Source: Candidatus Eiseniibacteriota bacterium (GTDB taxonomy: Bacteria > Eisenbacteria > RBG-16-71-46 > CAIMUX01 > WJJG01). From it: a stretch of 41,119 nucleotides of DNA. This document shows positions 3,526-33,658 of the stretch, one piece after another; positions within the stretch are counted from its first letter, which is position 1; every line of letters starts with the position of its first letter. The notes below the pieces were generated by a model that did no database searches, was not told the origin of the DNA, and saw nothing but the letters and a program-made list of their open reading frames with translations. The stretch covers positions 1-41,119 of the forward strand of contig JAGMDA010000025.1 of assembly GCA_023128935.1 (NCBI GenBank). The letters run 5' to 3'. The position numbers and the translations under genes were made by a program.

Positions 3526-3687
3526 ACCAGGCAATCGGCGTAGCCAACTGCCGTCAGGGAGAAGGTAAAATTGGTGGGGCTGGATGCCTGGTCCGTCCCT
3601 ACGCCTTCTCCGATTCTCACTCGCGACCACGCAGGCCGCATGGAGATCGTAGACAACCCGAGCCCCAAGCGTCAAGGGCAATGTCAC
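3505..3687 (-). CDS. Small hypothetical basic protein
   Basis: A 60-residue frame from GTG at 3687 to TAG at 3505, starting just after the stop of the previous gene (3693) and ending just before the next RBS, so it fills the gap exactly. The protein is rich in Leu and Arg (a run of five Arg in the middle) and ends in a Pro/Gly/Leu tail with no domain I recognise. No strong Shine-Dalgarno is visible. Two GCAATG-type hexamers surround the start. It is probably real because of the exact fit between its neighbours, but an untranslated spacer cannot be excluded. Confidence 0.45.
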   Translation of the reverse strand: MTLPLTLGARVVYDLHAACVVASENRRRRRDGPGIQPHQFYLLPDGSWLRRLPGPRLLSG

Positions 3688-3692
3688 ATTGC

Positions 3693-3944: not shown

Positions 3945-4912
3945 AATCTTGGCCTCCAATTCAAGCACAAAAATGTAAGGCTCTGGCCAGCGCCCGTACC
4001 GCACTCACGCGCCTCCGTATTCGCCCTCAGCCACTCGACACGCTTCGCTGGCAATTGCCCCGCCCGGCTCGTCTCCTTGCCACCCTTGACCGTGACGATC
4101 TTCCTCGGCGCCACCTCGGGAATACAGTCCTCACTGTCGCGGTAGGTGCACCACTCACACATCCCAGCCTGCTGAGGCAGCAGCGCCCCGTATCCCATCT
4201 CCTCAGCCTCCTCGACGATGAAATCCCCCTCGTATCGCCCCGAGAAACCAACCTCGAAGATGAACCAGCCATATGTCATCTGCCCCTTGATTCGGTGGTC
4301 TACGCGCCCCTCGGGATAAAAATTGATCCGCGAGACGAACTGATAAAATCTCCTGAGCTGCCTCGACCTGAATAGCCCCGCGTATCGAGCCTTGCCCTCA
4401 AAGAGCTGCGTACGCTGGAGTACACACACGAGGCCGCCAACCTTGACGATCTCGAGCAATGCCTGGACGACCTCAGAGCAGCGGTTGAATGGCGGGTTGA
4501 CACAGGCTGCGTCGAAAGAATCCGGATCGTAGGGACTCGCGAGAATGTCCACACCGCCCACGCCTGTGATGTGCTGGCCCGCGCGAATATCCGACGCCTC
4601 GACGACCCGGCCTATCCTGCACTGACCTCGGTGGATGTCGTAGAGGCCACGCCCATTGGCCGTGATTTCCGCGAGATCCCCGCGGACATTGTCGCCGACG
4701 AAGATGTCTGGCCAATAGCCCCCGAGCTCCCCGGTCATCGCCCCCCGCCCGCAACAGGGGTCAAGGATGTCACTGGCCAGGGCGAGCTTCGGTTCCCTCC
4801 GGAGCAGAGACCGAGTCACGTGCGGGGGTGTCTCGTAGCAGTCATGGGCAATGATCTCACTCGTCATTTCCTCGGGGGTGCGCAGCTTGCGCTCGTTGCC
4901 AACCCTACCCAT
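3941..4912 (-). CDS. DNA methyltransferase, NPPF type (probably N6-adenine)
   Basis: A 323-residue protein with the AdoMet-binding motif I ILDPCCGRGAMTGEL (around 49-63) and the catalytic motif IV VNPPF (138-142). The motif order I then IV and the NPPF tetrad place it among amino-methyltransferases (adenine N6 or cytosine N4); NPPF usually goes with adenine. The early YETPPHVTRSLL segment resembles substrate-entry regions of phage adenine methyltransferases. A C-terminal Cys cluster (CEWCTY...DC) may bind zinc. No endonuclease is beside it, so it is probably an orphan enzyme protecting phage DNA. The start ATG at 4912 overlaps the end of the 39-residue gene upstream by 8 bases. The target sequence is unknown. 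Confidence 0.85.
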   Translation of the reverse strand: MGRVGNERKLRTPEEMTSEIIAHDCYETPPHVTRSLLRREPKLALASDILDPCCGRGAMTGELGGYWPDIFVGDNVRGDLAEITANGRGLYDIHRGQCRIGRVVEASDIRAGQHITGVGGVDILASPYDPDSFDAACVNPPFNRCSEVVQALLEIVKVGGLVCVLQRTQLFEGKARYAGLFRSRQLRRFYQFVSRINFYPEGRVDHRIKGQMTYGWFIFEVGFSGRYEGDFIVEEAEEMGYGALLPQQAGMCEWCTYRDSEDCIPEVAPRKIVTVKGGKETSRAGQLPAKRVEWLRANTEARECGTGAGQSLTFLCLNWRPRL

Positions 4913-5024
4913 GCTTCATCCTCTCGCTCCGTCGGGGCCGCCATCGCCCAAAAATAGCCTCGAGCAATGCGCGGTCGCGGTATGTTTCCCGGTACCACTC
5001 ACGCTTCCGTTTTTTGAGGCTCAT
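4905..5024 (-). CDS. 39-residue basic peptide gene between two methyltransferase genes
   Basis: The frame starts at ATG 5024, overlapping the stop of the cytosine methyltransferase gene in an ATGA junction, and ends with TAG at 4905 inside the first codons of the next methyltransferase gene. It exactly bridges the gap. The peptide (MSLKKRKREWYRETY at the start, WRPRRSERMKHG at the end) is very rich in Lys and Arg with aromatic residues, as expected for a small nucleic-acid-binding or translation-coupling peptide. The fit of both ends with the neighbours' overlaps is the main evidence. The function is unknown. Confidence 0.6.
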   Translation of the reverse strand: MSLKKRKREWYRETYRDRALLEAIFGRWRPRRSERMKHG

Positions 5025-5875
5025 TCCATTGCCCTTCTTGCAAGAGTGATAAATGCAAGCGCCACCACTGCCGGAACGACTCCATTGCCACAGGCTCTAA
5101 GCTCACCCACCCGGTTGGTAGGCCCATGAGCCACTCCACAAATCGCGGGTTGAGTCGCGGGTAGAGCTGCGCGCCATCCTTCGTAGTCGTCTGGCCCTGG
5201 TGGAAATGCTCGGCCTCGACCTTCAGCCCCGGTGAGCGCCGCGCAAGCTGCGATGGGCAATTCCCTCGGCCCTCTACCGTTGCCGTCGGCGTGCTCCACA
5301 TCCGTATTGCATCCGTCAGTGTCGTGCCCGCGTGGGTTTTTACGCTCGTGTAGCCAGCCTTCCCGGAGCTGCGCGAGTCTGTCGCGGTCGCGGTGGGCCA
5401 GGATGAAGAGTCTCTCTCGCCTGTGCGGTGCGCCGACATCGGACGCTCGAAACATTCCCCACTCCGCGTCGAACCCGAGCGAGGCCAACGATCCAAGAAC
5501 GGGACCGAGCCCCCCAGCAATGAGCCCTGGGACGTTTTCCAAGAAAACGATTCCGGGCTCCACCTCGCCAATAATGCGCGCGATGTCGGGCCAGACCCAT
5601 CGGTCGTCCTCGGTGCCCTTTTGCTGGCCGGCGCAGCTCCACGGCTGGCACGGGAATCCCGCAGTGATGATATCCACCGCCCCACGCCACCCTGCGCCGC
5701 AGAAGGTCGCAATGTCAGACCAGATAGGCGCCTGAGGCAATGTCCCGTCTTCCATGCGCGCGACCAACATTGCGGACGCATAAGTCTCCCTCTCCACGTG
5801 ACACACTGTGCGATAGCCGAGAATGGCAAGTGATAATCCGAGCGTGAAGCCGTCGTAGCCGGAACATAGAGCCAT
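5021..5875 (-). CDS. DNA cytosine-5 methyltransferase
   Basis: A 284-residue C5-methyltransferase, taking the ATG at 5875; a GTG ten codons earlier at 5905 is possible but overlaps the previous gene by 25 bases. Motif I reads LCSGYDGFTLGL (3-14). The catalytic loop GFPCQPWS (73-80) carries the nucleophile Cys76. ENVPG (113-117) is motif VI and HRRERLF (151-157) is motif VIII. The C-terminal GNGVVPAV matches the motif X region. All core motifs are intact, so the enzyme should be active. The target-recognition region between about 165 and 230 is short and has no recognisable specificity. With no partner nuclease nearby it is probably an orphan phage enzyme that blocks host restriction. Confidence 0.93.
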   Translation of the reverse strand: MALCSGYDGFTLGLSLAILGYRTVCHVERETYASAMLVARMEDGTLPQAPIWSDIATFCGAGWRGAVDIITAGFPCQPWSCAGQQKGTEDDRWVWPDIARIIGEVEPGIVFLENVPGLIAGGLGPVLGSLASLGFDAEWGMFRASDVGAPHRRERLFILAHRDRDRLAQLREGWLHERKNPRGHDTDGCNTDVEHADGNGRGPRELPIAACAALTGAEGRGRAFPPGPDDYEGWRAALPATQPAICGVAHGPTNRVGELRACGNGVVPAVVALAFITLARRAME

Positions 5876-5880
5876 GCCAT

Positions 5881-6138
5881 TCAATTTCGCTCCCTCCACG
5901 GCCACGGATGCAGCTTGAATTCACGCCCACCAACGCATGTCAGGCAACGGTGAACCATGAAATATCGACAGTATTTGCAGCCCGGGAAGCGCGTCAGGCG
6001 CAGGTGGTGAAGCCGCTGCTGCTCCTCGCCGAAGGTCCAATGCTGTCGGCAGCTCTCGCAGTAGTACGCGCTGAGTTTCAGCGGGTCGGTTAGCGCCACA
6101 GGATGCGCGGGGCCTCCGCATTTTGGACAAGCAGTCAT
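5881..6138 (-). CDS. Small zinc-ribbon protein
   Basis: An 85-residue protein with three CxxC pairs: CPKC near the N-terminus (4-7), CESC around residue 27, and CKYC...CLTC near 54-68. The first two pairs could form one zinc ribbon and the last two a second. The ATG at 6138 overlaps the previous stop (6135) as ATGA. It sits directly upstream of the C5-methyltransferase. The C-terminus HPWPWRERN is aromatic and basic. The family is not recognised. It is one of five consecutive Cys-rich genes, which suggests a nucleic-acid-related or anti-restriction role. Confidence 0.7.
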   Translation of the reverse strand: MTACPKCGGPAHPVALTDPLKLSAYYCESCRQHWTFGEEQQRLHHLRLTRFPGCKYCRYFMVHRCLTCVGGREFKLHPWPWRERN

Positions 6139-6341
6139 CCTTCTCCCCGCTTCCGAATCGTATTGACCAACATTGCAATCTCCATCCGCGTGTCACACTC
6201 CAGCACCGTGCCACAGCGACAGCAACAGAACGTATACACCGCGCCATCGAGCCTCTCACGGCAGTGATCGTGGAAGTTTTGTATCAACTCAGTCTCGCGG
6301 ATGAAGTAACCGCAATGCGGGCATTTTTTGGTGTTGCTCAT
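6135..6341 (-). CDS. Small zinc-ribbon protein
   Basis: A 68-residue protein with an N-terminal CPHCGYF and a central CCCRCG, spaced about 30 residues apart, a classic four-Cys zinc ribbon with extra cysteines. A short helix (RMEIAMLVNTIRKRG) ends the protein. It is coupled to both neighbours by 4-base overlaps (6338/6341 and 6135/6138), so it should be co-translated with them. No specific function is recognised. Confidence 0.7.
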   Translation of the reverse strand: MSNTKKCPHCGYFIRETELIQNFHDHCRERLDGAVYTFCCCRCGTVLECDTRMEIAMLVNTIRKRGEG

Positions 6342-7177
6342 TGGCTGTCCTCGCTGCCTGCACAGTCAGGGCAATCGTATTCCTCAGCCTCACCCATACA
6401 TATTTCGCAGGCGCCACAATTGTCATAGCAATAGCCCTGCTGTAACTTCCCTGTCCCGCCACAGGTCTGGCACGCCCTCGGCAATGCGGCAGCGAGATCA
6501 GCAAGAGCGTTCAGCATTTCATCGGTCGGCATAATTTTCGATGTTTCTGCCCATTCGGCACGTGCTTTTTCCACAGCCCGCGCCAATGTCTCGAACTCGC
6601 GGAGCCGCTCCCTCGCCGCATTGGGCAACGGCCCGACCTCCAGCAATAATCCGAGGTCCTCTACTGCGCAGCAATGTGCGCAGTCCCTGTCGCGTTTGAT
6701 GCCGAGCCGGTCGCTACTTTCGAAGCACTCGCATGGCACACCATCAGTCACCGTCTGACATGCCTCCTCGATGCCGCGAAGCCGCTCACGAAGCTGACGT
6801 ACCTCTATTGCCAGAGCGCCGTAATCTTTTCCGTATTTCTCGATCCGCACGTCTCTATCGTGGCGCTGATTTTTGATGCGCCGATGGCAGTCGCACGCAT
6901 AGTCAACCTGCCCCGCCGCCTCCTTTGCGTGCCTTTCGAGTTCATCACGAACCTTGCGTTCACCGGTAAGCTTCTCCCTGATTTCCCATGCGTAGCACAG
7001 CGGGATTGTGACGAATAGCTCCTCCCGCCCTATTGCGCTATCAATCTCATCGTTAAAAATCTGCTCCCCTGAAATTGCAAGGTCGCTCTTCGCTGTCCCA
7101 CCGCAAGAGGGGCAATTGCGATACCGGATGCCGTCATGCCAACTTCCGGTACCACCACAATTTTTGCATTCTTTCAT
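6338..7177 (-). CDS. Protein with DnaJ-type CxxCxGxG zinc motifs at both ends
   Basis: A 279-residue protein from ATG 7177, chosen for its ATGA overlap with the stop at 7174 and the GAGGGA before it. The N-terminus has CKNCGGTGSW...CPSCGGTAK and the C-terminus CQTCGGTGKL...CEICMGE...CPDCAG, both the pattern of the DnaJ zinc domain. The middle (about 60-220) is charged and helical, probably coiled coil, with further Cys pairs near 95-100 and 160-170. There is no J-domain HPD motif, so it is not a co-chaperone of the usual kind. Phages often carry such proteins in early operons with unknown roles. It may act as a scaffold binding nucleic acid or protein. Confidence 0.7.
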   Translation of the reverse strand: MKECKNCGGTGSWHDGIRYRNCPSCGGTAKSDLAISGEQIFNDEIDSAIGREELFVTIPLCYAWEIREKLTGERKVRDELERHAKEAAGQVDYACDCHRRIKNQRHDRDVRIEKYGKDYGALAIEVRQLRERLRGIEEACQTVTDGVPCECFESSDRLGIKRDRDCAHCCAVEDLGLLLEVGPLPNAARERLREFETLARAVEKARAEWAETSKIMPTDEMLNALADLAAALPRACQTCGGTGKLQQGYCYDNCGACEICMGEAEEYDCPDCAGSEDSQ

Positions 7178-7839
7178 TTTTCCCTCGCTCTCCACGCAGC
7201 CAGGACGGCATCGGTAGGTGTTGCGCCCTCACCTGCGACAAGCTGCGGATCGTCATCCCTGCGCCATACGCGGTAGCCCGCCGTGCCGGCGCAGTACATT
7301 TCGTGGCCGCTGCGGCTGAGCCACTCCCACGCAGCGACTTGATCGCGAAACTTGTCTCGCTCCTGCTCCAGTCCTTCGCACTCGGCCTGCAGCTGAGACG
7401 CTATGCCCGCAGGACTCGCAGACTCGATAGGCCCCCCTCGCGCTTTGTCGCGCCAGTACATCACCTTTGCCATGTCGCTCGCTTTCCAGGCCGCACGCAC
7501 GGCCGCGATAGGGGCAGGATCATCCAACATCGACCCTACATCGCGCGGCCCACCCACCCCCAGCGCATTGCGCAGCCTGTCGAGATCTCTATACAGAGAT
7601 TCGGTCTCCTCCGTCTGTGCTTCGAGCTGCTCTTGCAGCGCATCTTCCAGGGGTCGCCGATTCCACTCGTCGAGCGCTTGCTGGCGCGCACTCTCCGGAT
7701 TGTCGAGAGGGGATTCGCGCGAGTTGTATCCACACACATTGCAGTGGCCCCAGAAGGAGCCAATCGCTTCAATGATCTCGATGGTGATATTTTCGCCCGG
7801 GGCCACCGCGGCGGCCCCACACCTTGGACACGGCTTCAT
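7174..7839 (-). CDS. Lar-like restriction alleviation protein, zinc domain plus helical tail
   Basis: A 221-residue protein. Residues 1-63 fit the Lar family domain: MKPCPRCGAAA at the start, HCNVCGYNS in the middle, and a final helix ending ALDEWNRRP. In the Rac prophage, Lar reduces type I restriction by the host. Here a long helical extension (about 64-221) is added, with a probable coiled coil and several Trp. Many phage proteins share only the zinc fold, so the anti-restriction role is an inference, strengthened by the nearby methyltransferases. The start at 7839 overlaps the preceding gene (7836). Confidence 0.65.
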   Translation of the reverse strand: MKPCPRCGAAAVAPGENITIEIIEAIGSFWGHCNVCGYNSRESPLDNPESARQQALDEWNRRPLEDALQEQLEAQTEETESLYRDLDRLRNALGVGGPRDVGSMLDDPAPIAAVRAAWKASDMAKVMYWRDKARGGPIESASPAGIASQLQAECEGLEQERDKFRDQVAAWEWLSRSGHEMYCAGTAGYRVWRRDDDPQLVAGEGATPTDAVLAAWRAREK

Positions 7840-8426
7840 TGGATGACCTCACACTCGAAGCGTCCCCATCCGAGAGCGCTTGATTTCTCCGGGCGACCCT
7901 CGCAAATACCGACACCGAATCCGGCAGCCTGGACGAGCGCGATAACCTGATCGCGACTCAGCATCCGACCGTCAAACTCAATAAGGACCTCGGCCTGCCA
8001 CTCGGTATACTCGGGGCGGTAGGCCAGGCCGCGAGTGCTGATGCCGATGGTGACGGCGTCCTCACGCATCACACCCTCGTGCGGAGTCCCGTCGAGCCTC
8101 TTGATCGGTACGAGCATTGCGCCATTGCCGGCGTCGACAAAAAGGGACTGACGGATCTCGGTCATCTTGATGCCGTCCATCACCCTCGCGGCTGAGACGA
8201 TTGCCTTTTTTAGTGCCGTCACGGGGAAACATTCGAGGCCATCCGCATTGCGGTATTTCGCAGCTTCAGATTCCTCGCGTGGCCGGCGCTCTTCCTTCGC
8301 GCGCTTGGCCTTTTTTTGTTGCTTGTCCCTAATTTCCTTCTTGGCTTTTTCGCTGAAACAATGCACCACGAGCGGCGATCCCGCCCGGTTGAATACCCTG
8401 ATTTTGAGTCTTTGGATACTGTCCAT
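7836..8426 (-). CDS. Conserved-looking phage protein of unknown function
   Basis: A 196-residue protein. A very basic Lys/Arg/Glu-rich helix (about 25-58) is followed by a compact alpha/beta domain with the sequences FPVTALKKAIVSAAR, MTEIRQSLFV and a C-terminal LVQAAGFGVGICEGRPEKS...WGRFE. I associate this type of sequence with phage early regions but do not know a function. The glycine-rich end followed by a WGRFE strand gives it a ferredoxin-like look. It lies after a 103-bp noncoding gap with short repeats, so it may begin a transcription or translation unit. The start ATG at 8426 has GAAAGG upstream. Confidence 0.6.
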   Translation of the reverse strand: MDSIQRLKIRVFNRAGSPLVVHCFSEKAKKEIRDKQQKKAKRAKEERRPREESEAAKYRNADGLECFPVTALKKAIVSAARVMDGIKMTEIRQSLFVDAGNGAMLVPIKRLDGTPHEGVMREDAVTIGISTRGLAYRPEYTEWQAEVLIEFDGRMLSRDQVIALVQAAGFGVGICEGRPEKSSALGWGRFECEVIQ

Positions 8427-8529
8427 CTGCCATGCCTTTCAGTCTTGTCGCCCAATGCCATACCGTGCCATACCGTGCCAAACCCGGCCCCGCCGCGCCT
8501 GCCATACCCCGCCGCGTACTCTGTCGATC
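8427..8529. repeat. Noncoding gap with tandem CCATACCGTG repeats
   Basis: This 103-bp gap is one of the few in the early operon. CCATACCGTG occurs twice in tandem (8458-8467, 8468-8477), followed by a partial copy CCAAACC; a further CCATACC lies near 8502. On the minus strand this reads CACGGTATGG repeated every 10 bp, about one helical turn, so a bound protein would contact the same face. No good promoter boxes are evident. It could be an operator or a remnant of expanded sequence. Confidence 0.45.
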
Positions 8530-9522
8530 CTACTCTTCTCTCGCCACAGATCGACCGCCGCGCCGGAACCAGACACGTCCCTCGATTGCCTCATCTGTCA
8601 GGATGGTCTCGCCGGCGCACGCCGTGAATATCTCCGGGTGTCTCTCGAGCGCTTGCTCCTCGCCAACTTCGCCGAGCTTGCGTAGACAGCTACGAATACG
8701 ACTGCGCCAGTCCTGCCATGACAGATCGTGGCTCGTACTGAGGGGGCAATGCATCGCAGGATTGAGACGGTCCTGCGACATTGCGTACGTCGTCGGATCG
8801 GTGACTCGATAGGCCCCGAGCTGCGCTTCGGTCGTGAGCCATGGGCCGTCGTTTTCAGCGTTTCGAATCTCGTACACCTGCGGATACAGGCCGGTCAGTC
8901 GGTCGGTGTCCTTCTGGTTTTTCGTCGCGCCGAGCGCCATCAGCGAGATCGTACGGTTGGCGAGGAGCGCCTGGACATCGGCGTGTAGCGCGGTCGGCTC
9001 CTCTTCTGCATTGCTCTCGGGTTCTGTGGCCGGCCTTATCATCGGCCCGACACGCTCCGTGCAGCCCTCCACGCACTCACGCGGATCTTCGAGGTAGGCC
9101 CTGCAATGCAGGCTGCCGTCTTCGCGTGTCTCGCCGTAGTCGCAGGTCTGGCAGGCCTCGGGCAATGTGGGTGCCTCGCCAAAGTCTTCCGCCTCCAGGC
9201 CATCCTCGGCCGCCTCCACCCTTGGCTCGTCATCGAGGGGCGGCACGCCCCCGGTCCCCGGCAGCGGTCCGCCCAAATCCCGATAAAACGCCAGCCCGTC
9301 ACCCTCGCGGATTGCACACTCCATCTCACGCACGTGGTTGCCGAGGCGCACAGCCCCGGTCTCCACATCCGATGCCAGGCCAATGGCCGTGTCCATGTCC
9401 TTCTTCCCCACGTAGCCCGCGAGGTCTCCGATGAGCGATTGCATTGCCTTCGCCTCGCCCTTGATTGCGCTTGTCGCGCGTGCTTTTTCTAGCTCCGTCA
9501 TCCCGTCTATCCTCTCTCTCAT
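8530..9522 (-). CDS. Hypothetical early protein with internal Cys cluster
   Basis: A 330-residue protein from ATG 9522 (ATGA overlap with the RuvC-like gene). The N-terminus is helical (TELEKARATSAIKGEAKAMQ), followed by an acidic Pro/Gly/Glu linker (about 95-125). A cysteine cluster CQTCDYGE...HCRAY...CVEGC (about 125-160) looks like a zinc knuckle of the kind seen in phage 'CxxC...C...C' proteins. The C-terminal half is helical with Trp-rich stretches. Nothing identifies a reaction. Its place between the recombination genes and the Lar-like gene suggests a DNA-related role. Confidence 0.6.
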   Translation of the reverse strand: MRERIDGMTELEKARATSAIKGEAKAMQSLIGDLAGYVGKKDMDTAIGLASDVETGAVRLGNHVREMECAIREGDGLAFYRDLGGPLPGTGGVPPLDDEPRVEAAEDGLEAEDFGEAPTLPEACQTCDYGETREDGSLHCRAYLEDPRECVEGCTERVGPMIRPATEPESNAEEEPTALHADVQALLANRTISLMALGATKNQKDTDRLTGLYPQVYEIRNAENDGPWLTTEAQLGAYRVTDPTTYAMSQDRLNPAMHCPLSTSHDLSWQDWRSRIRSCLRKLGEVGEEQALERHPEIFTACAGETILTDEAIEGRVWFRRGGRSVAREE

Positions 9523-10070
9523 ACGCGCCCCCCCGTCTCCATAAACCACTCACACATTGCTAGCGCGTCCCAATCGTGACCCTCCCTGAGCCCCGCAGTG
9601 GGACCAGGTTCTGTCGTGGCGGTTCTCTTCTTCCCCGTCACCGGGTCCTTCCATTTCCGCCTCTCCTTCAGCTTGACTTTCTGCGACCCGTAGATCTCGA
9701 TGAGCCTCGTTTTCACTTCGATCTTCTTACCGTGAGCCATGCCGATGAGCCTCGCGAGTACTACCGACCTCGGCACACGATGGACCGCCGACTCGCCGAG
9801 GTAGCACTCTGCCAGCTCGACGAAGCGCCCCACCTGTACCGCCGTCTCTAGCGCCTCGGGACGGACACCCCTGCCGTAGGCGCGGATGTCCTCGATGGCG
9901 AGGTAGTGCTGCTCTCTGGTGTTGAGGGCGGTCAGCTCACAATCAAGCCTCCCGCGAATCCGCGCATTCTCATCGTATACGTGGACCAGGATCGTCCTGC
10001 TCGTGTCGATAACGACGAGCGCGGATCTGAGAGGCCCGGGGTCGATGCCGTAGATGCGGGAGGCGGTCAT
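9519..10070 (-). CDS. RuvC-like Holliday junction resolvase
   Basis: A 183-residue RNase H-fold nuclease. The first strand carries GIDPGP..SALVVID (8-22), the second the catalytic Glu in YLAIEDI (around 55-62), and the C-terminal helix GHDWDALAM (around 165-173) supplies the last acidic residues, matching the D-E-D/D set of RuvC-family resolvases. A basic loop (KERRKWKDPVTGKKR) could hold DNA. It would cut branched recombination or replication intermediates before packaging. It lies in the recombination block, overlapping the Rad50-like gene by 4 bases. Confidence 0.85.
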   Translation of the reverse strand: MTASRIYGIDPGPLRSALVVIDTSRTILVHVYDENARIRGRLDCELTALNTREQHYLAIEDIRAYGRGVRPEALETAVQVGRFVELAECYLGESAVHRVPRSVVLARLIGMAHGKKIEVKTRLIEIYGSQKVKLKERRKWKDPVTGKKRTATTEPGPTAGLREGHDWDALAMCEWFMETGGRV

Positions 10071-11392
10071 CCCCGCACCTCCACAATCTCCCCGTCCTCG
10101 ATAATCAGGTCACACTCTTCACCCTTGCCGACAACTTCCAAGAGCGCCTGCATCTTTTTCTCACGCGCGAATTCACACACGAGCCGTCGGCTCTTCGCGT
10201 CGAGCGTGCAGCCCTCGCGCATCAGGATGAGCCGCAGCCGAGGATTGAGCGCTACCGCAATCGCCATGGCTATCCTGAGCCGTCGGGACATGCTCGCACG
10301 CGCCAGCGGCCGACCGTCATAGGTCACGCCATTCTCGTCGAGCGAGAGCTTTGGTACGGGAAACTCGGCCGCTTCGAGCAATCCGCGCTTCTCCTCGTCG
10401 ATGTCATCGAGCTGCTTCGTGAGCTTCTCTGACTGCGTGCGGCGTCGACCAACTTCATCCTGTGCCTCGCGATGGCGAGCATTCTCACGGACCATTCGGT
10501 TGGTGCTCTCGGCACCCTCGATCCTTGCGCGGATCGGGTCGGGATCGATGACGGCTGCCTCGGTTTTTTGGGTGGCTGCCTCGTCGATTTTGATGACAGC
10601 TTCCTGTTCCTTGGCACTCTTCTTCGTGCGGGCAATGTGGCCCTTGGCGCGCTCGACTGCCGCCAACGCAGCCACCAGCTGTGACTCTGCGTCGAGGACG
10701 TCCTCACGCATCTCGTCGAGGCGTATGCGGCTGTCCGTCACCCTGTCACGAGCCACCACTGCCGCGTCCTGAGAATCTCTCGCGGCTTCCAGCTCTTCGG
10801 TGAGACTGGCGATTGACACCTCTTCGGTAGGCGCCCCGTCGTGCAGCGGGAGTCGCTCTACGAGCGCCTTCGCCTCTTTGAGTGCTACATTGATCATCGT
10901 GCGGGTGCTGAAGAGTTCTTTACGTTTGGCGTTATGATCCGTGAAGTCGATCCCCACGAGGTTGCCCACTATCTTGAGCTGCTTTTTCTCGTCGAGGCGG
11001 ATGAACTCCGTCGGGTCGAACGCCAGCCCCGCGCCCACCAGGGCGTCGAGGAATTTCTGCGGTGACGGTCGGGTGAGCCCGTCCTTGGTCGTGATTTTGA
11101 CCGGCGTATTGCCACTCGCGAGCAGCTTCCTCGTGACCGTGAACTCCCCGAGGTCGAGGGTGATGGAGCCGCTGTCCTGCCCCTCACGGATGGTACACGC
11201 GGGTATCGTTTTCGTCCCGCCGAGCGCGTACATCACGCAGTCGATGACGGTCGATTTCCCCTGCTCGTTGTCACCGCCGAGGATGAGCGTCTCGCCGTCG
11301 GGGTCTATCCTAACGGCCTTCAAAATGCCCACATTCTCGGCCTTCAGGCTGATCAAATAGAGGGGCTCTGGTGCTATCGTAGCGGTCATCAT
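10067..11392 (-). CDS. SMC/Rad50-like ATPase with coiled coil
   Basis: A 441-residue ATPase. The N-terminal head has the Walker A motif GGDNEQGKST (39-48), with the serine/threonine-rich 'VIDCVMYALGG' that follows in SbcC/Rad50/RecF proteins. A coiled coil spans about 170-340. The C-terminal head has a signature-like ARASMSRRLRIAMAIA and a strand LRLILMREG in the Walker B position. The normal Walker B Asp is not present; the Glu is. The signature lacks the usual SGGE core. The coil is short, so it resembles RecF or truncated Rad50 more than full SMC. It may pair with the Cas4-like nuclease or the annealing protein. Activity is uncertain because of the changed motifs. Confidence 0.8.
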   Translation of the reverse strand: MMTATIAPEPLYLISLKAENVGILKAVRIDPDGETLILGGDNEQGKSTVIDCVMYALGGTKTIPACTIREGQDSGSITLDLGEFTVTRKLLASGNTPVKITTKDGLTRPSPQKFLDALVGAGLAFDPTEFIRLDEKKQLKIVGNLVGIDFTDHNAKRKELFSTRTMINVALKEAKALVERLPLHDGAPTEEVSIASLTEELEAARDSQDAAVVARDRVTDSRIRLDEMREDVLDAESQLVAALAAVERAKGHIARTKKSAKEQEAVIKIDEAATQKTEAAVIDPDPIRARIEGAESTNRMVRENARHREAQDEVGRRRTQSEKLTKQLDDIDEEKRGLLEAAEFPVPKLSLDENGVTYDGRPLARASMSRRLRIAMAIAVALNPRLRLILMREGCTLDAKSRRLVCEFAREKKMQALLEVVGKGEECDLIIEDGEIVEVRG

Positions 11393-12273
11393 TTCTCCAT
11401 TTCGTCAGCGCGCTTGTTGAGTTCGTTAACGAGTTTTTGCATGTCATCTTTGCTGAGGTCGAGAGCCCGGGAATCCGGCAAGCCAATCTCCGAGGCAATT
11501 TTGCCTATCTGATTCCAGGAGAAGATCTTGTTCTTGTCGAAGGAACGGAGCTGGGCAACGAGCGCTGCCGGCGCGTCGCTCTTCGGTTTCTGTTTCTTGT
11601 CGTAGGCCACATTGCTGGAGCCCTCGCGCGAGAACCCCATCGCTTCGAGGTCATCCCACGTGTACCCACTCAGCCCTAGCATCTTCCGCAGTGCGGAGCC
11701 TACGGCGCGGGTTCTGGCGTGCTGCAAGAGGTTGTGCCGAGACACCTCGTCGGCCTGTCGAGTCATCACAGGCTGGCCTGCGCTGTCGTAGACGGGCTCT
11801 TTTTTGCGGGTCTTGTCGTTCCATTTCTTCGCCGGGACACAGCCGAGGAACTGATCGCGCGTGGTGGCCATGCCGAGTCCTTCGGTTGCTCCGAGCCCCG
11901 GTATGTCGATGCGCACCGTCACGGTGTAGCCGTAGTGCCCCTCGCCGTGGTCCTCGTAGTCCTTCGAGAGGATTCGGATCTCGCCGCCACCAATGCGGGC
12001 AAGGAGCTGCTCGCAAAAAGCCTCGGCGAAATAGGGGGCCGCGTCGCGTCCCTTCCCCATCCCGATGATGTCGCTCGGCCTCGCCTTCTTCACGCACAGC
12101 TCGATCACGCGATCCTTGTATTCGATCATCGCGCCAGTCTGCTGTAGCGCGTGCTCGATGGCTCCCGGTGCCGTGAGGTCGCGCGCCATCGGCAATGTGG
12201 ATGGCCGCTCGATCACAGCGACTGCCTTCGTCTCGGAATACTCGGCGTCAATGACGCCGCTCTCTTTCGCCAT
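11389..12273 (-). CDS. Possible Rad52-like single-strand annealing protein
   Basis: A 294-residue protein. The central part has beta strands (GHYGYTVTVRIDIPGLGATEGLG) followed by a helix HNLLQHARTRAVGSALRKMLGL. This is the order and feel of the Rad52/SSAP fold, where a helix of the type 'A..DA.KRALr.lG' follows the beta sheet. The C-terminal third has a basic linker and a small helical domain (SWNQIGKIASEIGLP), as in phage annealing proteins. It lies between a Cas4-like nuclease and a Rad50-like ATPase, the expected place for a recombinase in a phage exonuclease-annealase pair. The match is by pattern only. RBS GGAG lies before ATG 12273. Confidence 0.5.
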   Translation of the reverse strand: MAKESGVIDAEYSETKAVAVIERPSTLPMARDLTAPGAIEHALQQTGAMIEYKDRVIELCVKKARPSDIIGMGKGRDAAPYFAEAFCEQLLARIGGGEIRILSKDYEDHGEGHYGYTVTVRIDIPGLGATEGLGMATTRDQFLGCVPAKKWNDKTRKKEPVYDSAGQPVMTRQADEVSRHNLLQHARTRAVGSALRKMLGLSGYTWDDLEAMGFSREGSSNVAYDKKQKPKSDAPAALVAQLRSFDKNKIFSWNQIGKIASEIGLPDSRALDLSKDDMQKLVNELNKRADEMEK

Positions 12274-12277
12274 GTCT

Positions 12278-13396
12278 CTACTCCTGTTCCAATGGGTGAA
12301 TTTTTACAGTGATTGATCCTGACTTGCTCGGTGGTTTCACGGTCACTTCGGCAATGCCAGGCGCGAGGTATTTGCCTGGAGGCATCGCCCTGAAGCGGGT
12401 CTTGATGACTGTGTCCAAGTCCTTGAAGTCCTTGGCCGGTCCCTTCATTGACGGCCATTTGCGCAGTGACGAGAGTACCAGGCCATTTGCCGGGTCATCC
12501 ATGTCGACGATGGTCTCCCGGTCAATGACGATGGCAGGCTCGCACGTCACGCCGCAGTACGGGCACAGCTCGCAGGCTTTTGGGTTGGCGACGAATGGCG
12601 GTACGATCTTCTCGCGGACGTGCCTGTCAACGGCCTTGACGGCCTCGACGACGCGAAACGCACGCTCGGCAGTGAGCTCGACAAACGCCAATTTGATCCT
12701 CGAATTGTCCTTGTTGACGAACAACAAGATAGCGCCGTCAAGCACCTCTCCGGTCTGCCCGTAGGCGAGCAGATAGCTCACTACCTGCGGCACGTATTTG
12801 ATAAGCCACGGCTTCGACGTGGCACTCTCTAGCCACGCTGCACACTCAATCGGATCGTCCGGCAATGCAGGCCAAATCATCCCCGACATGCTTTTGATAT
12901 CCAAGACCCACTTGCGGTCGCCGTAGTGTGGGTGAGTGAGTATCCCATCCGGGTGGCCACGCCACAGGAGCACCTCACCGAGTCCCGAGGGGCCGGTGCC
13001 GTAGTACTCGACGGTCTCCTGCGCACGCTCAATGCGGAATCCCATCAGCTCGAGCGCCCGCCTCGTATCTTCCTCAAGCTCATTGCCGACGTGGAAAATG
13101 CCCGCCACGTGAGTCTCGAGTGGGCTCTTCTCCGCGCCGATACGCTCATAATAGAGCCGCCTCAGGCACATATCGCCGAGCGACGACGACCGGCAATGCG
13201 GCTGTGCTTTCGGCGGGAACTGCCGGCTCGCTAGCCTCTCATCCCACAGCTCCGCGATGACCGGCCACTGCGGTACCTCGGCGCCCTCCGGTGCGAGCGC
13301 TGCGAGCTGTGATTTCAAGCGCGCATTGTCGAGCCGCAATGAATCAATTTCCTTCTGCAATTGCCTCAACTTCTTCTCCTTCCTTGGGTTGCGCAC
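12278..13396 (-). CDS. Cas4/RecB-like PD-(D/E)XK exonuclease, probable Fe-S
   Basis: A 372-residue nuclease. The frame opens at GTG 13396, but a TTG at 13369 has a better ribosome binding site (AAGGAG) and may be the real start; both lie inside the preceding gene. A short coiled coil (5-35) precedes the catalytic domain: a first Cys in SSLGDMCLRRLYYERIG, then GNELEEDTRRALE, GHPDGILTH, and the nuclease motif WVLDIKSM. A CPYCGVTC cluster plus a preceding CEL supplies the other cysteines. The layout C...CxxCx(n)C around a PD-(D/E)XK core is that of Cas4 and AddB iron-sulfur nucleases. It would resect DNA ends for the annealing protein next to it. Confidence 0.8.
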   Translation of the reverse strand: MRNPRKEKKLRQLQKEIDSLRLDNARLKSQLAALAPEGAEVPQWPVIAELWDERLASRQFPPKAQPHCRSSSLGDMCLRRLYYERIGAEKSPLETHVAGIFHVGNELEEDTRRALELMGFRIERAQETVEYYGTGPSGLGEVLLWRGHPDGILTHPHYGDRKWVLDIKSMSGMIWPALPDDPIECAAWLESATSKPWLIKYVPQVVSYLLAYGQTGEVLDGAILLFVNKDNSRIKLAFVELTAERAFRVVEAVKAVDRHVREKIVPPFVANPKACELCPYCGVTCEPAIVIDRETIVDMDDPANGLVLSSLRKWPSMKGPAKDFKDLDTVIKTRFRAMPPGKYLAPGIAEVTVKPPSKSGSITVKIHPLEQE

Positions 13397-13619
13397 GCAT
13401 TGCTGTAAGCTCTACGCTCTGCCGTGCGACAGTACCTACGGCCTCGATCAGATCCTCTCGTAGTGCCTCGTCGCGCACTTGAAGCACGCGGATCGTCTCC
13501 GTGTAGTCGGCGGTACGCGCGTCTAGCTCCCGCTCGTAGCGGACCATGAGCCACCCGCAGAGCGCGATAGCGAGCACGAGCGCCGCGATGATGGGCAGGC
13601 TATCGTCGCTGTGGGACAC
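13344..13619 (-). CDS. Single-pass membrane protein with coiled coil, i-spanin-like
   Basis: A 91-residue protein from GTG 13619, chosen for GGGAGG six bases upstream. A hydrophobic segment (about 8-26, LPIIAALVLAIALCGWLMV) is followed by RYERELDARTADYTETIRVL and a helical periplasm-length domain, the shape of an inner-membrane spanin (Rz). An outer-membrane lipoprotein partner was not found, and the gene is far from the amidase, so a holin accessory or another membrane protein is equally possible. It overlaps both neighbours. Confidence 0.5.
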   Translation of the reverse strand: MSHSDDSLPIIAALVLAIALCGWLMVRYERELDARTADYTETIRVLQVRDEALREDLIEAVGTVARQSVELTAMRAQPKEGEEVEAIAEGN

Positions 13620-13956
13620 CGTACACCTCCCGATCCAAAAATGCCCAGCAACCGCTATCGCGGTCACGCACGTAGTCGTGGGGGTGCCCAGGGTCACGGA
13701 GGCAGAGCGCGTAAAGCTCGGAGGGATCCGAGGCGTTCCACGCCGCACAATTCTTACATTGCCCGTAGCGTGGCCGGGCTATCGCTATCGGGGCCGCCAT
13801 CTGCGCCCTCGCAAGATCAAGGACCATGGTGAGGGCTTCAGCATCCTCGGGCTGCCCATTTTTTCGGAAAAATTGAGCCATCGACAGGAGCCCGGGGATA
13901 CGGTCGCGCGTCGACCGGCAGGATTCCAGGTGGTCAATCGCCTCCTGGGGTGTCAC
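13600..13956 (-). CDS. Small zinc-knuckle phage protein
   Basis: A 118-residue protein from GTG 13956, preferred because GGGAGG stands eight bases upstream; an earlier in-frame start at 13989 would overlap the previous gene by 56 bases. A helical N-terminus leads to CKNCAAWNASDPSELYALCLRDP...DSGCWAF. The CxxC...C...C pattern, with aromatic residues after the first pair and a terminal CW, recurs in many phage early proteins of unknown role. It probably binds zinc. Confidence 0.6.
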   Translation of the reverse strand: MTPQEAIDHLESCRSTRDRIPGLLSMAQFFRKNGQPEDAEALTMVLDLARAQMAAPIAIARPRYGQCKNCAAWNASDPSELYALCLRDPGHPHDYVRDRDSGCWAFLDREVYGVPQRR

Positions 13957-14224
13957 TGCTCTCACCTCCCGCCGCAGCAGCGCGCTCACGCGCCAGGGCC
14001 TCGTCGACCTCGCGCCCTACGCGGCGCAGTGCAGGCGAGAGCGGCATCACCGTGGCGGACGGAGCGATCCTCTCTAGCGCGTCAGCAATGCGGGCCGCCA
14101 TCAGCCCCGGTAGTGCGACCGTGCAGCACTGGTGCTCGTGGGACCACAGGGCACAGCTGCCATAGGTGCAGTAGCCGCCACCTGAGCCCATCGGGCAGTA
14201 ATGGGGCGCCATTTTCTCGGACAT
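13934..14224 (-). CDS. Cys-rich small protein, first gene of the early operon
   Basis: A 96-residue protein starting at ATG 14224 with GGAGG six bases upstream. The N-terminal 35 residues hold five Cys and three His (HYCPMGSGGGYCTYG...HEHQCC), likely a zinc site. The rest is an Ala/Arg-rich helix and a Gly/Ser/Asp tail. It is the first gene after the promoter-operator at 14360-14402, so it should be among the earliest made phage proteins, a position often held by host-takeover or regulatory factors. The function is not recognised. Confidence 0.65.
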   Translation of the reverse strand: MSEKMAPHYCPMGSGGGYCTYGSCALWSHEHQCCTVALPGLMAARIADALERIAPSATVMPLSPALRRVGREVDEALARERAAAAGGESSDTPGGD

Positions 14225-14258
14225 AAAAACCTCCGTCTCCCCCGGCCCGTCGAGCCGG
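14225..14258 (-). promoter_or_regulatory. Hairpin leader and ribosome binding site of the early operon
   Basis: A 5-bp GC hairpin (CCGGC at 14258-14254, loop 14253-14247, GCCGG at 14246-14242) is followed by GGAGG (14234-14230), five T's and the ATG at 14224. The GGAGGTTTTTATG string is identical to that at 3495. The promoter at 14374-14402 would start RNA near 14366, giving a leader of about 140 bases that ends in this hairpin. Confidence 0.5.
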
Positions 14259-14359
14259 AGCGATGGCCCGGCAGGGGCCGATACGGACCCGCCGGGACGC
14301 GAGGGAGCAGAGGCACAGGGTGTGTGCTCACGGGGGGAATCTGCCGGATTCTCGCTCTA

Positions 14360-14402
14360 CTCCGTGTGATCTCAGAGTACACACGGAGAGGCTCCGTGTC
14401 AA
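14360..14402 (-). promoter_or_regulatory. Early promoter overlapped by three operator-like repeats
   Basis: On the minus strand TTGACA (14402-14397) is followed after 17 bases by TACTCT (14379-14374), three of six matches to the -10 consensus. Three 9-base elements overlap it: GACACGGAG (14400-14392, over the -35), CTCCGTGTG (14388-14380, just before the -10) and CACACGGAG (14368-14360, at the expected start point). The last two are a perfect inverted repeat 11 bases apart; the first differs by one base. A dimeric repressor or activator bound here would control the early operon. No obvious cognate regulator is encoded nearby. Confidence 0.6.
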
Positions 14403-14490
14403 GCGGCTCTCGGCGTCGGGCCTCATCCTCCCGCGCAAAGGGAGAAGAGGTACGCGTACCATATGGGGATCTTTTTTTTCGCGGGGCCCG

Positions 14491-15039
14491 TCAAAAAATA
14501 GCACGAGCCACGTAGGTAGCCTGCGCACCGCGACACCCCGCGAGGAGGAGGCGCAGATTGCCTCGACTGGCGGCACCGGCGATCAGCTCGACCCCCGTCG
14601 AGACTACCTCGGTGCCGAGGGCCTCGCCCGCGTACTCGGCGCCACAGGCCGGAGAGTAGCGGTAGACCCGCCGGGCGTATGGATCCCACGCGGAGCCCGC
14701 GATCCGGGCCGCTGAGGTGGCGAGCTCCAGATCATCCTCGGCCGCGTGGCCTAGCTCGTGGATGAGTACGTCCACGGCCGCGCCCGGGGAGAGCCCTCGC
14801 GCGAGCCGGATCGTGCGGCTCTGCGAGCAAAAATCGCCCGAGCATCCCTCGAGCGCCCACGTCCGCACCCACACCGGGGAGGTGAGGAGGGACGCGAGAT
14901 GCGCGACCATCGGGGAGGTGGTGGCGCCGTCGGGGAGGCTCCCGCGGATCATCCGGGGGATCGCGGAGAGGTCCGCACGCTCGAGCGCGGACTGGGCGCG
15001 GCTCGCGAGCCGTCGTCTCTCTCTCCGTCCGATACCCAC
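14491..15039 (-). CDS. Zincin-like protein with HELGH motif
   Basis: A 182-residue protein from GTG 15039 with GAGGAGG at optimal distance. HELGHAAED (94-102) is a zinc metallopeptidase HExxH motif. Glu residues 40-60 positions later (in AEYAGEALGTEVV...VELI) could be the third ligand of a gluzincin-type site. Two short helices precede it, with a Cys pair at 66 and 71. No signal peptide or transmembrane segment is visible, so it acts inside the cell or in the virion. It is divergent from the plus-strand gene pair and shares their G+C-rich composition and lack of GCAATG. It could process a phage protein or attack a host one; catalysis is inferred from the motif alone. Confidence 0.65.
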   Translation of the reverse strand: MGIGRRERRRLASRAQSALERADLSAIPRMIRGSLPDGATTSPMVAHLASLLTSPVWVRTWALEGCSGDFCSQSRTIRLARGLSPGAAVDVLIHELGHAAEDDLELATSAARIAGSAWDPYARRVYRYSPACGAEYAGEALGTEVVSTGVELIAGAASRGNLRLLLAGCRGAQATYVARAIF

Positions 15040-15661
15040 TGTGGCCTCCTCTCTCTACCCATATCTATACACAGACCGTGCCAGGCCTACTGGATCGCGT
15101 CTACGCGCGGGCGCAGAGAAGAAAAGAGGAACGCGGTCTGTATAGAGGGGCAAAACTACGACTTTTTTATCCTAGCCCTTTTTGGAAAAGCCGGGTTAAA
15201 GCCCGCGCCTGGGGCGGCTCTCCGCGGTAAAGAGACCAGGCGGGTAGGGATAGGGGGTCGTGACAACTCGGCCCTACCCCGAGAGTGGCCCTGCGACCGG
15301 ATCCTGATCCTCGGAGCTCCGGCCCGATAGGACCAAAAAGCCTACCCCAGGCTGGAGAGCCGCGCTGAGAGCGGGCTGTGATTTTTGGCAGGAGAGTTGC
15401 ATAGTAGTCGGTGTCGAGAGAGACTGGAGCCCCCCGGAGCAGGCAGACGACAGGGGGCCGAGAGCCGGGCCGATACCGCCAGCTCCGACCAGCCCCCAGC
15501 CTACGGGCGAGCCCGCTACCGACGCCAGACGGACGGGCCAGTAATGGGGGGCCGTGGGAGACGGGAGAGAGCCCCGATCCAGCCTCGCTCGGCTGTTGAG
15601 ACTGAATCGCCCCGCTACGGGGCATCGGATACGCCCCTCGTGAGAGGGGAAGGAGGTCACC
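15040..15661. other. Divergent intergenic region with an imperfect inverted repeat
   Basis: A 622-bp stretch separates two divergent genes. It holds no convincing gene; open frames here are antisense products of high G+C. CTATACACAGACCG (15065-15078) is mirrored by CGGTCTGTATAG (15134-15145), identical apart from two extra bases. Each arm presents TATAG in the direction of the gene it faces, so these may be paired promoter elements or a shared binding site, but I cannot assign -35 boxes. A T-rich run lies at 15162-15185. The plus-strand gene has AGGAGG at 15651-15656 for its RBS. Confidence 0.4.
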
Positions 15662-17296
15662 ATGACCAACACCAACACCAACACCAACACCAACACCAAC
15701 ACCCCCGAGGTAGAGGCGGCCCATGCCACTCTCATCGAGGCCATCGAGGCTGCCCAGGCCTCGTGGACCGGGTGGGACTGGTGCGAGGGATTCGCCGTGC
15801 GCGAGGGCGACAGCATCTACCCCGACGGTCCGCTCGGCGACGAGGAGATCGAGGCACTCCGCGAGCAGATCGCGGCCAGCGTCCGCTCCGAGGGGGAGTG
15901 GGTCGACTACCCCTACCCCGATCCCGATCCCGACGGGCCGGAGTACGAGACCGTCCTGGAGGGCGCTCTCGACGCCGAGACGGTTCACGAGATCGTCGAG
16001 GAGACGCTCGCGGCGATCCGCGAGTACCGCGACACGGCCGCACGGATCGCGGGCCAGGCGTCCGACCTCGGTGCCGAGGCCATCGAGGCCCTGCGCGCCG
16101 GGAATCTCGAGTCGGCCGTGGGGCTGCTCGAGTCGGCGTGTGACGCGGAGCGGGAGTACGGGGACGATCCCGTGTGGAGCGTGCCGCGCGATGCGGCGCA
16201 GGCTCTGCTCGGCGACGAGGCGGAGGTCTACGAGGGCGACTCCGGCGAGGCGATTCTCGGGGCCACCGACGACAGCATCATCGCCGGCTGCACCCCGCTC
16301 GCTGGCGCGGTACAGTGCGGCCTCGACCGCCGCACGGCGGAGGCTCTCTACCACGCTCTCGACGCGTGGGGGGACGTCGACCTCCGCGAGGCTCTCGTGG
16401 GCCTCGCGGAGCAGCTCGCCGAGCGCTCTGGCGAGGAGTGGGACATGGCCGCCGCCGAGGAGCGGTGGAGTGGCCACGCTCACGAGAGTCTCGTCGAGGG
16501 TGCCGTGGACGCGGCACTCGACACGAGGGGCCTCCGCGAGGACATGTGGACCGTAGATCCGGAGGGGGTCTACGAGATCGATATCGTGACGGAGGAGACG
16601 CGCTACCCCGATCCTGCGAATCTTACGGTCACAGAGACCGTGTACGTCGCCTCGTGCCACGGCGACGGGACATCCGATAGCGGGTGGCTCCGGGAGTACA
16701 CCACTCGCGAGGAGGCTCACGCAGCGCTCGACGCGGGGATCCTCGGGGCCGATACCGCCCCTCGCTCCCCGGGTGGCACCCTCCCCGCTGATGCCCTCGT
16801 CGCCCGGTCACCCGAGGCGAGCCGGGCATGGCGCGCCGATCCCCGGAGCGGACCGATACCCCTCCGGGCAGAGGATTATCCTGGTCTCCCCGAGTGCGCG
16901 GTGTGCGCCGCGGGTGAGGTCGACCCCACCCCTCCCGCTACCCACATTTTCACCCGGGCCGACGAGGAGGGGCGCACCGAGAAGATCCCGATGTGCTCCG
17001 TGTGTGCTCGTGAGCTGAGCCGGGACGACGCCGCGCACTGCGAGATCATCGATGAGGCGATGGTCCGTGAGGAGGAGACGAGCCGCGAGAAGCTCCTCGC
17101 GTGCGGGGGATTCGTCGCGACACGCCCTCCAGCTCCCGAGGGAGAGAGGCCCTGCGAGGCCCACGTCCGGTGTGCGGCCACCGTACTCCCTCCGGAGGGG
17201 CACGAGGATCCGTACCTCGTCTGGCTGATCGACGGGGCGTGTCGCGTCCTGATCGCCGGTGTGGATTACGGCGAGGCCCTCCCGGGGCTGCTCTGA
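15662..17296 (+). CDS. Acidic 544-residue protein of unknown function on the opposite strand
   Basis: A 544-residue protein with AGGAGG before ATG 15662. It opens with a Thr-Asn repeat (residues 2-14) encoded by a hexanucleotide repeat. The body is very rich in Glu, Asp and Ala, mostly helical (for example EAIEALRAGNLESAVGLLESA), with a proline-aspartate run PYPDPDPDGP near residue 85. Near the C-terminus CAVCAAG and CSVCARE form a possible zinc site. No family is recognised. The gene runs against the rest of the phage, is much richer in G+C, and contains no GCAATG, all signs of separate origin. The acidic character would allow DNA mimicry or host-protein binding, but that is speculation. It overlaps the next gene by one base (TGATG). 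Confidence 0.8.
   Translation: MTNTNTNTNTNTNTPEVEAAHATLIEAIEAAQASWTGWDWCEGFAVREGDSIYPDGPLGDEEIEALREQIAASVRSEGEWVDYPYPDPDPDGPEYETVLEGALDAETVHEIVEETLAAIREYRDTAARIAGQASDLGAEAIEALRAGNLESAVGLLESACDAEREYGDDPVWSVPRDAAQALLGDEAEVYEGDSGEAILGATDDSIIAGCTPLAGAVQCGLDRRTAEALYHALDAWGDVDLREALVGLAEQLAERSGEEWDMAAAEERWSGHAHESLVEGAVDAALDTRGLREDMWTVDPEGVYEIDIVTEETRYPDPANLTVTETVYVASCHGDGTSDSGWLREYTTREEAHAALDAGILGADTAPRSPGGTLPADALVARSPEASRAWRADPRSGPIPLRAEDYPGLPECAVCAAGEVDPTPPATHIFTRADEEGRTEKIPMCSVCARELSRDDAAHCEIIDEAMVREEETSREKLLACGGFVATRPPAPEGERPCEAHVRCAATVLPPEGHEDPYLVWLIDGACRVLIAGVDYGEALPGLL
15665..15700 (+). repeat. Hexanucleotide repeat (ACCAAC)6 after the start codon
   Basis: Six perfect copies of ACCAAC directly follow the start codon of the 544-residue gene and encode Thr-Asn repeats. 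A 6-bp unit keeps the reading frame if copies are gained or lost by slippage, so copy changes would alter only the length of the N-terminal tract, and possibly translation efficiency. Confidence 0.9.
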
Positions 17297-17565
17297 TGGC
17301 CATCGTCAGGGCGGAGCTACTCACCGACGGCTCGCGCCGTCAGTGCGAGGTCTGCGGGCTGGCCCCCGCCGACCTGTACGACGTGGAGGCGGATCTGTAC
17401 CTCTGCGACGAGTGTATGTGCCCTCGGCCCAGCCACGGGATCTGCCCTGCGTGCCTCGAGTGGTACCACCCAGACATCTGGTACGAGGAGCCGGAGGAGT
17501 GGCGCGAGCGCGTCACTCGAGAGTGGGAGAGCCCATCCCGCATCTGCGCGTGGTGCGGAGGCTGA
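17296..17565 (+). CDS. Small four-CxxC zinc protein, partner of the acidic protein
   Basis: An 89-residue protein. The ATG at 17296 shares its A with the stop of the upstream gene (TGATG), so the two are translated together. It has four Cys pairs: CEVCG (about 18), CDEC with an extra MC (about 40), CPAC (about 53) and CAWCG at the C-terminus. This gives two likely zinc ribbons. Acidic and Trp-rich segments (WYHPDIWYEEPEEWRERV) separate them. It belongs to the same high-G+C cassette and ends just before a strong terminator. It probably works with the acidic protein; no biochemical role can be assigned. Confidence 0.75.
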   Translation: MAIVRAELLTDGSRRQCEVCGLAPADLYDVEADLYLCDECMCPRPSHGICPACLEWYHPDIWYEEPEEWRERVTREWESPSRICAWCGG

Positions 17566-17581
17566 GCCCCCAAAGAAGAAA

Positions 17582-17611
17582 CCCCGGCTGGGAGACCGGG
17601 GCTTTTTCTTG
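17582..17611. terminator. Bidirectional intrinsic terminator
   Basis: CCCCGG (17582-17587) and CCGGGG (17596-17601) form a stem around an 8-base loop, followed on the plus strand by CTTTTTCTT. On the minus strand the same stem is followed by TTTCTTCTTT. It therefore ends the plus-strand cassette at 17565 and also the minus-strand late transcript arriving from 17812. Confidence 0.85.
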
Positions 17612-17811
17612 CGTCGTCGACGAGGGGGGTACATCTAAGAGCGCAAGGCTATCCTATCACAGGCCGAGCGTGGGACGCAAGAGCCCGTCCCGCAGTCGCA
17701 GCCACACCCCACGAGGCCCACGTCGCCGGCGGTGACGCTTCGTCCTCCTCCTCCACCCCGTGACGACGTCGAGCGCCACGAGCGGGGGGATCTTCCCGGT
17801 TCGAATGGCTT
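17612..17811. other. Convergent intergenic spacer
   Basis: A 200-bp gap between the terminator and the end of the lysis-region gene at 17812. No gene, promoter or tRNA is supported. A TTCGAAT string near 17800 looks like a tRNA T-loop but has no pairing stem. Confidence 0.5.
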
Positions 17812-18237
17812 TCACTCGGTCGAGGGCTCCCCGGAGCCCGCCGGTGCGTTTCCCTCTGCCCTCGCAGTGAGGGCGTAGTCGAGGGGCAGCAGATCCGCAT
17901 CGATGCGGCCTGCCTTGGCCTCTTGATGGTAGCCCGATCCGAGCGCCTTCACTGCCTCGGTCTCGTCGAGAGACACCGGGGCGAAGCCGAACGCCTTCAG
18001 GATCCGTGACATTGCGGCCACGAATTCGTCATCCTTTTTCGTCCGCGTGTGCTTCGCGATCCGCTGGACCACCCCGTGAATCTCGGGGATGGAATCCCGG
18101 ATGAAGTCCCACCTTGATTTTTTCCCGGTCTCCACCTCGGCGCGCCACTGCGAACGCAGGTGTCCGATGACGCCAACGAGCGCGATGATGATGTACAGCC
18201 ACTGAATCACGTCTTCGATCTTGATTCCCTCGAGCAT
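17812..18237 (-). CDS. Membrane protein of the lysis cassette, holin candidate
   Basis: A 141-residue protein with one hydrophobic segment near the N-terminus (WLYIIIALVGVIGHL, about 13-27) followed by a charged helical domain and an acidic Pro/Ser tail. The ATG overlaps the amidase stop as TAATG (18237). A membrane protein coupled directly to an endolysin is usually a holin, a holin regulator or a spanin. One segment and a large cytoplasmic domain fit none of the common classes exactly, so holin is only a candidate. Confidence 0.5.
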   Translation of the reverse strand: MLEGIKIEDVIQWLYIIIALVGVIGHLRSQWRAEVETGKKSRWDFIRDSIPEIHGVVQRIAKHTRTKKDDEFVAAMSRILKAFGFAPVSLDETEAVKALGSGYHQEAKAGRIDADLLPLDYALTARAEGNAPAGSGEPSTE

Positions 18238-18683
18238 TACGGTGCTCCTTCCAACGGCATCCTCTCGGACACCGCGTCAATAATCCGGTCCCACGATTCT
18301 ATCACATTGCGCCCGGGGCACGCGGTCATCGAGTGCTGGCTGTGTCGAGTAATATCCGTCCGGGGATCAAGGTCGTGCCTCACGCATATCTCGACGAGGA
18401 GATCCGCAAGAGCCTCCTTAGCCTCGAGGCTAAGCGGATCAAGCTCGTAATTCCCGCCGATGGCCACACCGATGTGGGTGCGGTTGCGTCCCCGGCAATG
18501 CGCGCCATCTTCAGACTCGTCACGCCCGGCCTGGCTGTGCCATCCAGCGCATGTCTCGACGAGGACCCAGTGGTAGCCGATGTCTCGGAAGCCACGCTTC
18601 TCGGTGTGGTAGGCACGAATGTACTTGAGCGGCGTCGTTGACGGCACCGCCGTGTGATGGACCACGATACCAGTAACCTTCAT
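18237..18683 (-). CDS. N-acetylmuramoyl-L-alanine amidase (endolysin)
   Basis: A 148-residue amidase of the amidase_2/T7-lysozyme type, cutting the bond between muramic acid and the peptide stem of the cell wall. The start at ATG 18683 makes an ATGA overlap with the upstream gene. HH at 9-10, His114 and Cys122 in TACPGRN are the zinc ligands expected for the fold, and GYHW (36-39) matches the region that follows the first strand in T7 lysozyme. It lacks a signal peptide and a wall-binding domain, so export depends on a holin. The size is typical of endolysins from phages of Gram-negative bacteria. Confidence 0.92.
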   Translation of the reverse strand: MKVTGIVVHHTAVPSTTPLKYIRAYHTEKRGFRDIGYHWVLVETCAGWHSQAGRDESEDGAHCRGRNRTHIGVAIGGNYELDPLSLEAKEALADLLVEICVRHDLDPRTDITRHSQHSMTACPGRNVIESWDRIIDAVSERMPLEGAP

Positions 18684-33627: not shown

Positions 33628-33658
33628 TTTTCCTCCGTCGGGTCGATAGGGATCGGCA

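Follow-up and report, generated by a model that had tools for sequence, protein, structure and literature searches.

We analyzed contig JAGMDA010000025.1 of Candidatus Eiseniibacteriota bacterium (assembly GCA_023128935.1), and its full 41,119 nucleotides form the window of this study. The contig belongs to a metagenome-assembled genome of 872 contigs (4.59 Mb, 87% complete) and carries a siphovirus-like genome. A G+C-rich block of three genes at about 14 to 18 kb is devoid of the hexamer GCAATG, which abounds in the rest of the phage genome, and its oligonucleotide signature differs strongly from its surroundings. We find that the block is probably a moron-like cassette that entered the phage genome when this was already filled with the refined word GCAATGY (Y, C or T). 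The sequence-only reading that drew attention to the gap took it as an independent marker of ancestry. Other measures give good support for a separate ancestry of the block, and the motif itself adds limited independent weight.

The GCAATG word fills the phage genome and is missing from one block

Counting both strands, we found 103 copies of GCAATG in the window against 23.8 ± 4.1 expected. The seventh base was C or T in 80 of them, which gave the refined word GCAATGY. In the phage outside the gap, GCAATGT and GCAATGC were 9.5-fold and 4.8-fold above the first-order expectation and ranked first and fourth among all 7-mers. The density of GCAATGY on both strands was 2.1 per kb over positions 1-14090 and 18010-41119, with no strand bias (37/43). 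Copies outside the gap were spaced at random (coefficient of variation 0.90; 17% of the simulated sets were at least as even). The genes held 96 copies, as compared to 31 after synonymous codon shuffling. Thus, the enrichment lies in the DNA and not in the proteins.

The claimed absence of the word over 3.9 kb was borne out by our counts. Neighboring copies at 14085 (plus strand) and 18010 (minus strand) leave a gap of 3925 bases, and the next longest gaps are 1607 and 1531 bases, in agreement with the earlier figure of about 1.6 kb. Likewise, the roughly ten copies said to be expected at the window average came to 9.8. Performing 20,000 uniform placements, we obtained a maximal gap of at least 3925 bases with P = 0.0027 for the hexamer; hence, the gap is larger than the density predicts. 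The same test for the 80 copies of GCAATGY gave P = 0.026. The gap also coincides with a G+C-rich cassette, as had been stated. However, only two of its three genes are on the strand opposite to the phage genes, the third being on the minus strand.

The block has a foreign signature

We scanned the window in sliding 3576-base segments, scoring GC-corrected dinucleotide and tetranucleotide distances. The block was the most extreme segment, with a dinucleotide distance of 192.6 against a median of 59.3, and its tetranucleotide distance was also the largest. A two-model segmentation selected 13938-17897 at 213 nats, while the next best segment elsewhere reached 11. In the proposed k-mer comparison, the block was the largest outlier in the window. 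Its dinucleotide distance was 192 to the phage, 185 to the host bin, and 164 and 181 to two further genomes from the same family. The third-position G+C of the block genes was 0.81-0.87, as compared to about 0.72 elsewhere in the phage. The edges of the cassette fall at gene boundaries, and both flanking genes are intact.

Composition accounts for much of the missing word

The block has 68% G+C and is low in AA/TT and CA/TG steps. From its own dinucleotides only 0.54 copies of the word would be expected, or about 2.3 after multiplying by the fourfold enrichment of the phage. The larger part of the shortage thus goes with composition. We then scored each place where the encoded protein would allow the word as used or unused. 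A set of 41 phage genes used 89 of the 231 permitted sites (39%), against 0 of 17 in the block (Fisher P = 0.0004). Sorted into classes of rising third-position G+C, the phage genes used 13/29, 16/34, 48/137 and 11/30 sites (45%, 47%, 35% and 37%), with no clear fall. Even the phage genes with third-position G+C of at least 0.76 used 12 of 31 sites, differing from the 0 of 17 in the block (P = 0.004). A codon-use model with one enrichment term gave P = 0.0035 for the absence given phage codons, but P = 0.07, which is not significant, with the codons of the block itself.

In summary, the motif is truly absent, and G+C explains this only in part; the absence does, however, depend on the codon and dinucleotide style of the block. 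The idea of an independent marker of ancestry is thus half right: the motif carries information beyond G+C and agrees with composition, yet given the block's codons its independent weight is limited. Besides, in the phage region at 32708-36173, around the major head protein gene, few permitted sites were used (3 of 18, with about 7 expected).

Gene content and layout of the cassette

The recognized genes of the phage include those for terminase subunits, portal, major head protein, tape measure, J-like tail protein and amidase, and for a Cas4-type exonuclease, a DnaB-like helicase and three DNA methyltransferases. Apart from the block genes, all recognizable genes are on the minus strand; the only plus-strand genes of the contig are within the block. 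The cassette separates the lysis genes from the early ones (recombination/replication). It holds three orphan genes in two predicted divergent transcription units, a leftward one of a single gene and a rightward two-gene operon followed by a terminator (Table 1).

Table 1. Features in and around the motif-free stretch
Feature	Position	Strand	Remarks
Left flanking phage gene, 96 aa, Cys-rich	13934..14224	-	its motif copy at 14085 borders the gap
GCAATG-free gap	14091..18009		neighboring copies 14085-14090 (+) and 18010-18015 (-)
G+C-rich foreign cassette	14225..17811		best gene-bounded limits; compositional segmentation 13938-17897
182-aa zincin-like protein	14491..15039	-	HELGH at residues 94-98, TEVVSTG at 143; pI 9.2
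Non-coding stretch between divergent genes, 620 bp	15040..15661		putative divergent control region
544-aa acidic orphan protein	15662..17296	+	pI 4.1; N-terminal (TN)n repeat; two CxxC pairs near C terminus
89-aa zinc-ribbon-like protein	17296..17565	+	four CxxC pairs; start codon overlaps stop of the 544-aa gene
Intrinsic terminator	17579..17612	+	stem CCCCGGCTGGGAGACCGGGG, then T-run; readable from both strands
Right flanking phage gene, 141 aa, N-terminal hydrophobic segment	17812..18237	-	adjoins amidase gene 18237-18683; perhaps holin-like

The first genes of both units have strong Shine-Dalgarno sequences, GAGGAGG before the 182-aa gene and AAGGAGGTCACC upstream of the 544-aa gene. G+C by codon position (0.71/0.61/0.81 and 0.74/0.52/0.85, respectively) supports the coding status of these two genes. 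The divergent intergenic region contains an imperfect inverted repeat, CTATACACAGACCG / CGGTCTGTATAGAG, at 15065-15147, which is a possible operator pair. As a single strand, this non-coding stretch gave a better fold than shuffled versions of it (z -3.1). Matches to Rfam, at 17572-17643 and 14826-14892, were far under the gathering scores.

The 182-aa protein resembles phage zincin-like metallopeptidases (DUF6782 and similar) in having HELGH followed by a TEVVSTG stretch. It differs from them in scoring 15.7 bits against DUF6782 (E 0.009), under the curated Pfam cut-off of 27, and in having no homologue in the phage, viral contig, host class and plasmid collections. We take TEVVSTG to resemble a phage zincin motif, as a lead only. 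Reverse-transcriptase matches of this protein in PADLOC (E 0.004 and 0.04) were judged spurious.

For the 544-aa protein, no homologue was found in phages, viral contigs, the host class and relatives, genome contigs or plasmids. A likeness to a ryanodine-receptor domain at residues 239-270 appeared only when the whole protein was searched (E 0.003); no stretch passed alone, and there was no Pfam match. The stretch scored better when trimmed post hoc, but that search was not independent, and we did not accept the likeness. The 89-aa protein had no homologue among phages, the sole collection searched. Single-sequence structure predictions of the 182-aa and 544-aa proteins were unusable (mean predicted local distance difference test scores, 37 and 40).

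Origin of the cassette

Morons, accessory cassettes described for temperate phages such as DLP4 (PMC6469090), share several features with the block. Its composition differs from that of the surrounding phage, it has a separate predicted transcription unit with its own terminator (a stem-loop and T-run after the last plus-strand gene), it sits at a module boundary, and its orphan genes look accessory. It departs from morons in the arrangement of its three genes as two divergent units, in showing no recognized promoter and in that a block-free relative was not found.

We propose that the phage genome would first have accumulated GCAATGY and then gained the cassette between its lysis and early genes. 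The cassette would work as its own transcription module, partly opposing the flanking transcription, with the divergent control region serving the leftward zincin-like gene and the rightward operon with its terminator. Its expression would be separate from the phage operons. The motif would be missing mainly because the G+C-rich codon use of the cassette excludes GCAATGY; as a second cause, the cassette may have been too briefly under the force of the phage to gain copies. The cassette would have come by horizontal transfer, and recently, and it probably has an accessory function acting on the host or on rivals. We infer the insertion, its timing and the accessory role only, because a close relative of the phage was not available: using the terminase, the Cas4-type exonuclease, the phrog_1499 protein and the capsid in a scan that left metagenome contigs outside, we found none beyond about 47% identity, which is the identity of the nearest terminase.

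Several observations speak against such a gain. The collections searched yielded no related phage without the block, which leaves the insertion as an inference. Neither an integrase, a transposase nor end repeats mark a route of entry. No sigma-70 consensus promoter was found in the cassette, which has a 620-bp divergent region with inverted repeats. Moreover, since its absence is not significant with the block's own codons, the motif says little on the time of entry.

The last point is also what a plain composition effect would predict. The block would then be native DNA rich in G+C, such as a structured control region with an acidic-protein gene that are subject to constraints of their own, and a separate ancestry would be unneeded. 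The low number of copies expected from the block's dinucleotides, even with the enrichment of the phage, and the folding of the non-coding part agree with this. We nevertheless consider it unlikely, as the GC-corrected dinucleotide signature is far off in all three genes and in the non-coding part, and the use of the motif by phage genes does not clearly fall with third-position G+C. The block matches nothing else, either in its metagenome bin of 872 contigs or elsewhere, which might suggest other DNA joined into the phage contig by assembly or binning. However, such a chimera would need a false join at each end of the block. Both would have to coincide with gene boundaries and leave ribosome-binding sites and stop codons undamaged, and neither shows an N or a repeat, which makes a chimera very improbable. 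To a self-moving element (a transposon, intron or homing cassette) we give hardly any credence. The block is indeed self-contained, partly on the opposite strand and foreign in composition, but it gave no match to a transposase, recombinase or homing nuclease, its two ends share no direct or inverted repeats of at least 9 bases, and it has no second copy in the bin. Of the mobility enzyme and end repeats by which transposons and homing elements are recognized, neither was found.

A moron-like gain of this sort would be ordinary phage mosaicism. At present the block is best described as an orphan and probably accessory cassette; in such cassettes, genes for host interaction that are new to science are often found.

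Possible nature of the GCAATGY word

The stronger puzzle is a single 7-base word that fills the genome of the phage but not that of its host. The closest match of the phage by composition was its own bin (dinucleotide distance 50), which supports the bin as the host. In 202 kb of this bin, GCAATG was present at 1.16-fold the first-order expectation (rank 531 of 2079) and 1.39-fold the second-order expectation. A reversed-pattern control had suggested a 3.7-fold enrichment in the host; Markov expectations over the 202 kb cut this to 1.2-1.4, and the control was discarded. Sampling two further genomes from the family, we found the hexamer at 1.1-fold and 0.56-fold, with GCAATGT alone at 2.0-fold in one of them. 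Distant phage relatives showed no notable enrichment of the word.

The lack of a notable enrichment in the bin (1.16-fold) makes it less likely that the word is a Chi or uptake signal of the host, an argument valid only if the bin is the true host. Chi is enriched in phages, and lambdoid Rec-minus phages have a median observed/expected ratio of 3.1 (Bobay et al. 2013, PMC3784561). Like Chi in phages, GCAATG is a short asymmetric word in excess across the phage genome. Unlike Chi, it shows no notable excess in the host bin and is about ten times denser (2.7 per kb, as compared to 0.2 per kb for Chi in phages). A further difference is the Cas4-type exonuclease that this phage apparently encodes itself. 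A literature search on GCAATG with phage returned nothing relevant.

GCAATGY is possibly the target of a phage-encoded methyltransferase or another DNA-binding protein, and the three phage methyltransferases are candidates for acting at it. Only tentatively, and with more doubt than confidence, do we suggest a phage-specific functional DNA signal, steadily gained (39% of the permitted places), so that motif-free stretches would date the arrival of genes. If the motif were a true phage signal, its absence would offer a second, composition-aware way to spot recent genes in phages without sequenced relatives.

The methyltransferase genes of this 41-kb phage lie at 3941-4912, 4999-5880 and 39976-41073, and one of the encoded proteins has a ParB-like N-terminal part. 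GAATTC was also in excess over the whole window (26 seen against 9 expected from third-order composition), which is unusual for a palindromic restriction-type site.
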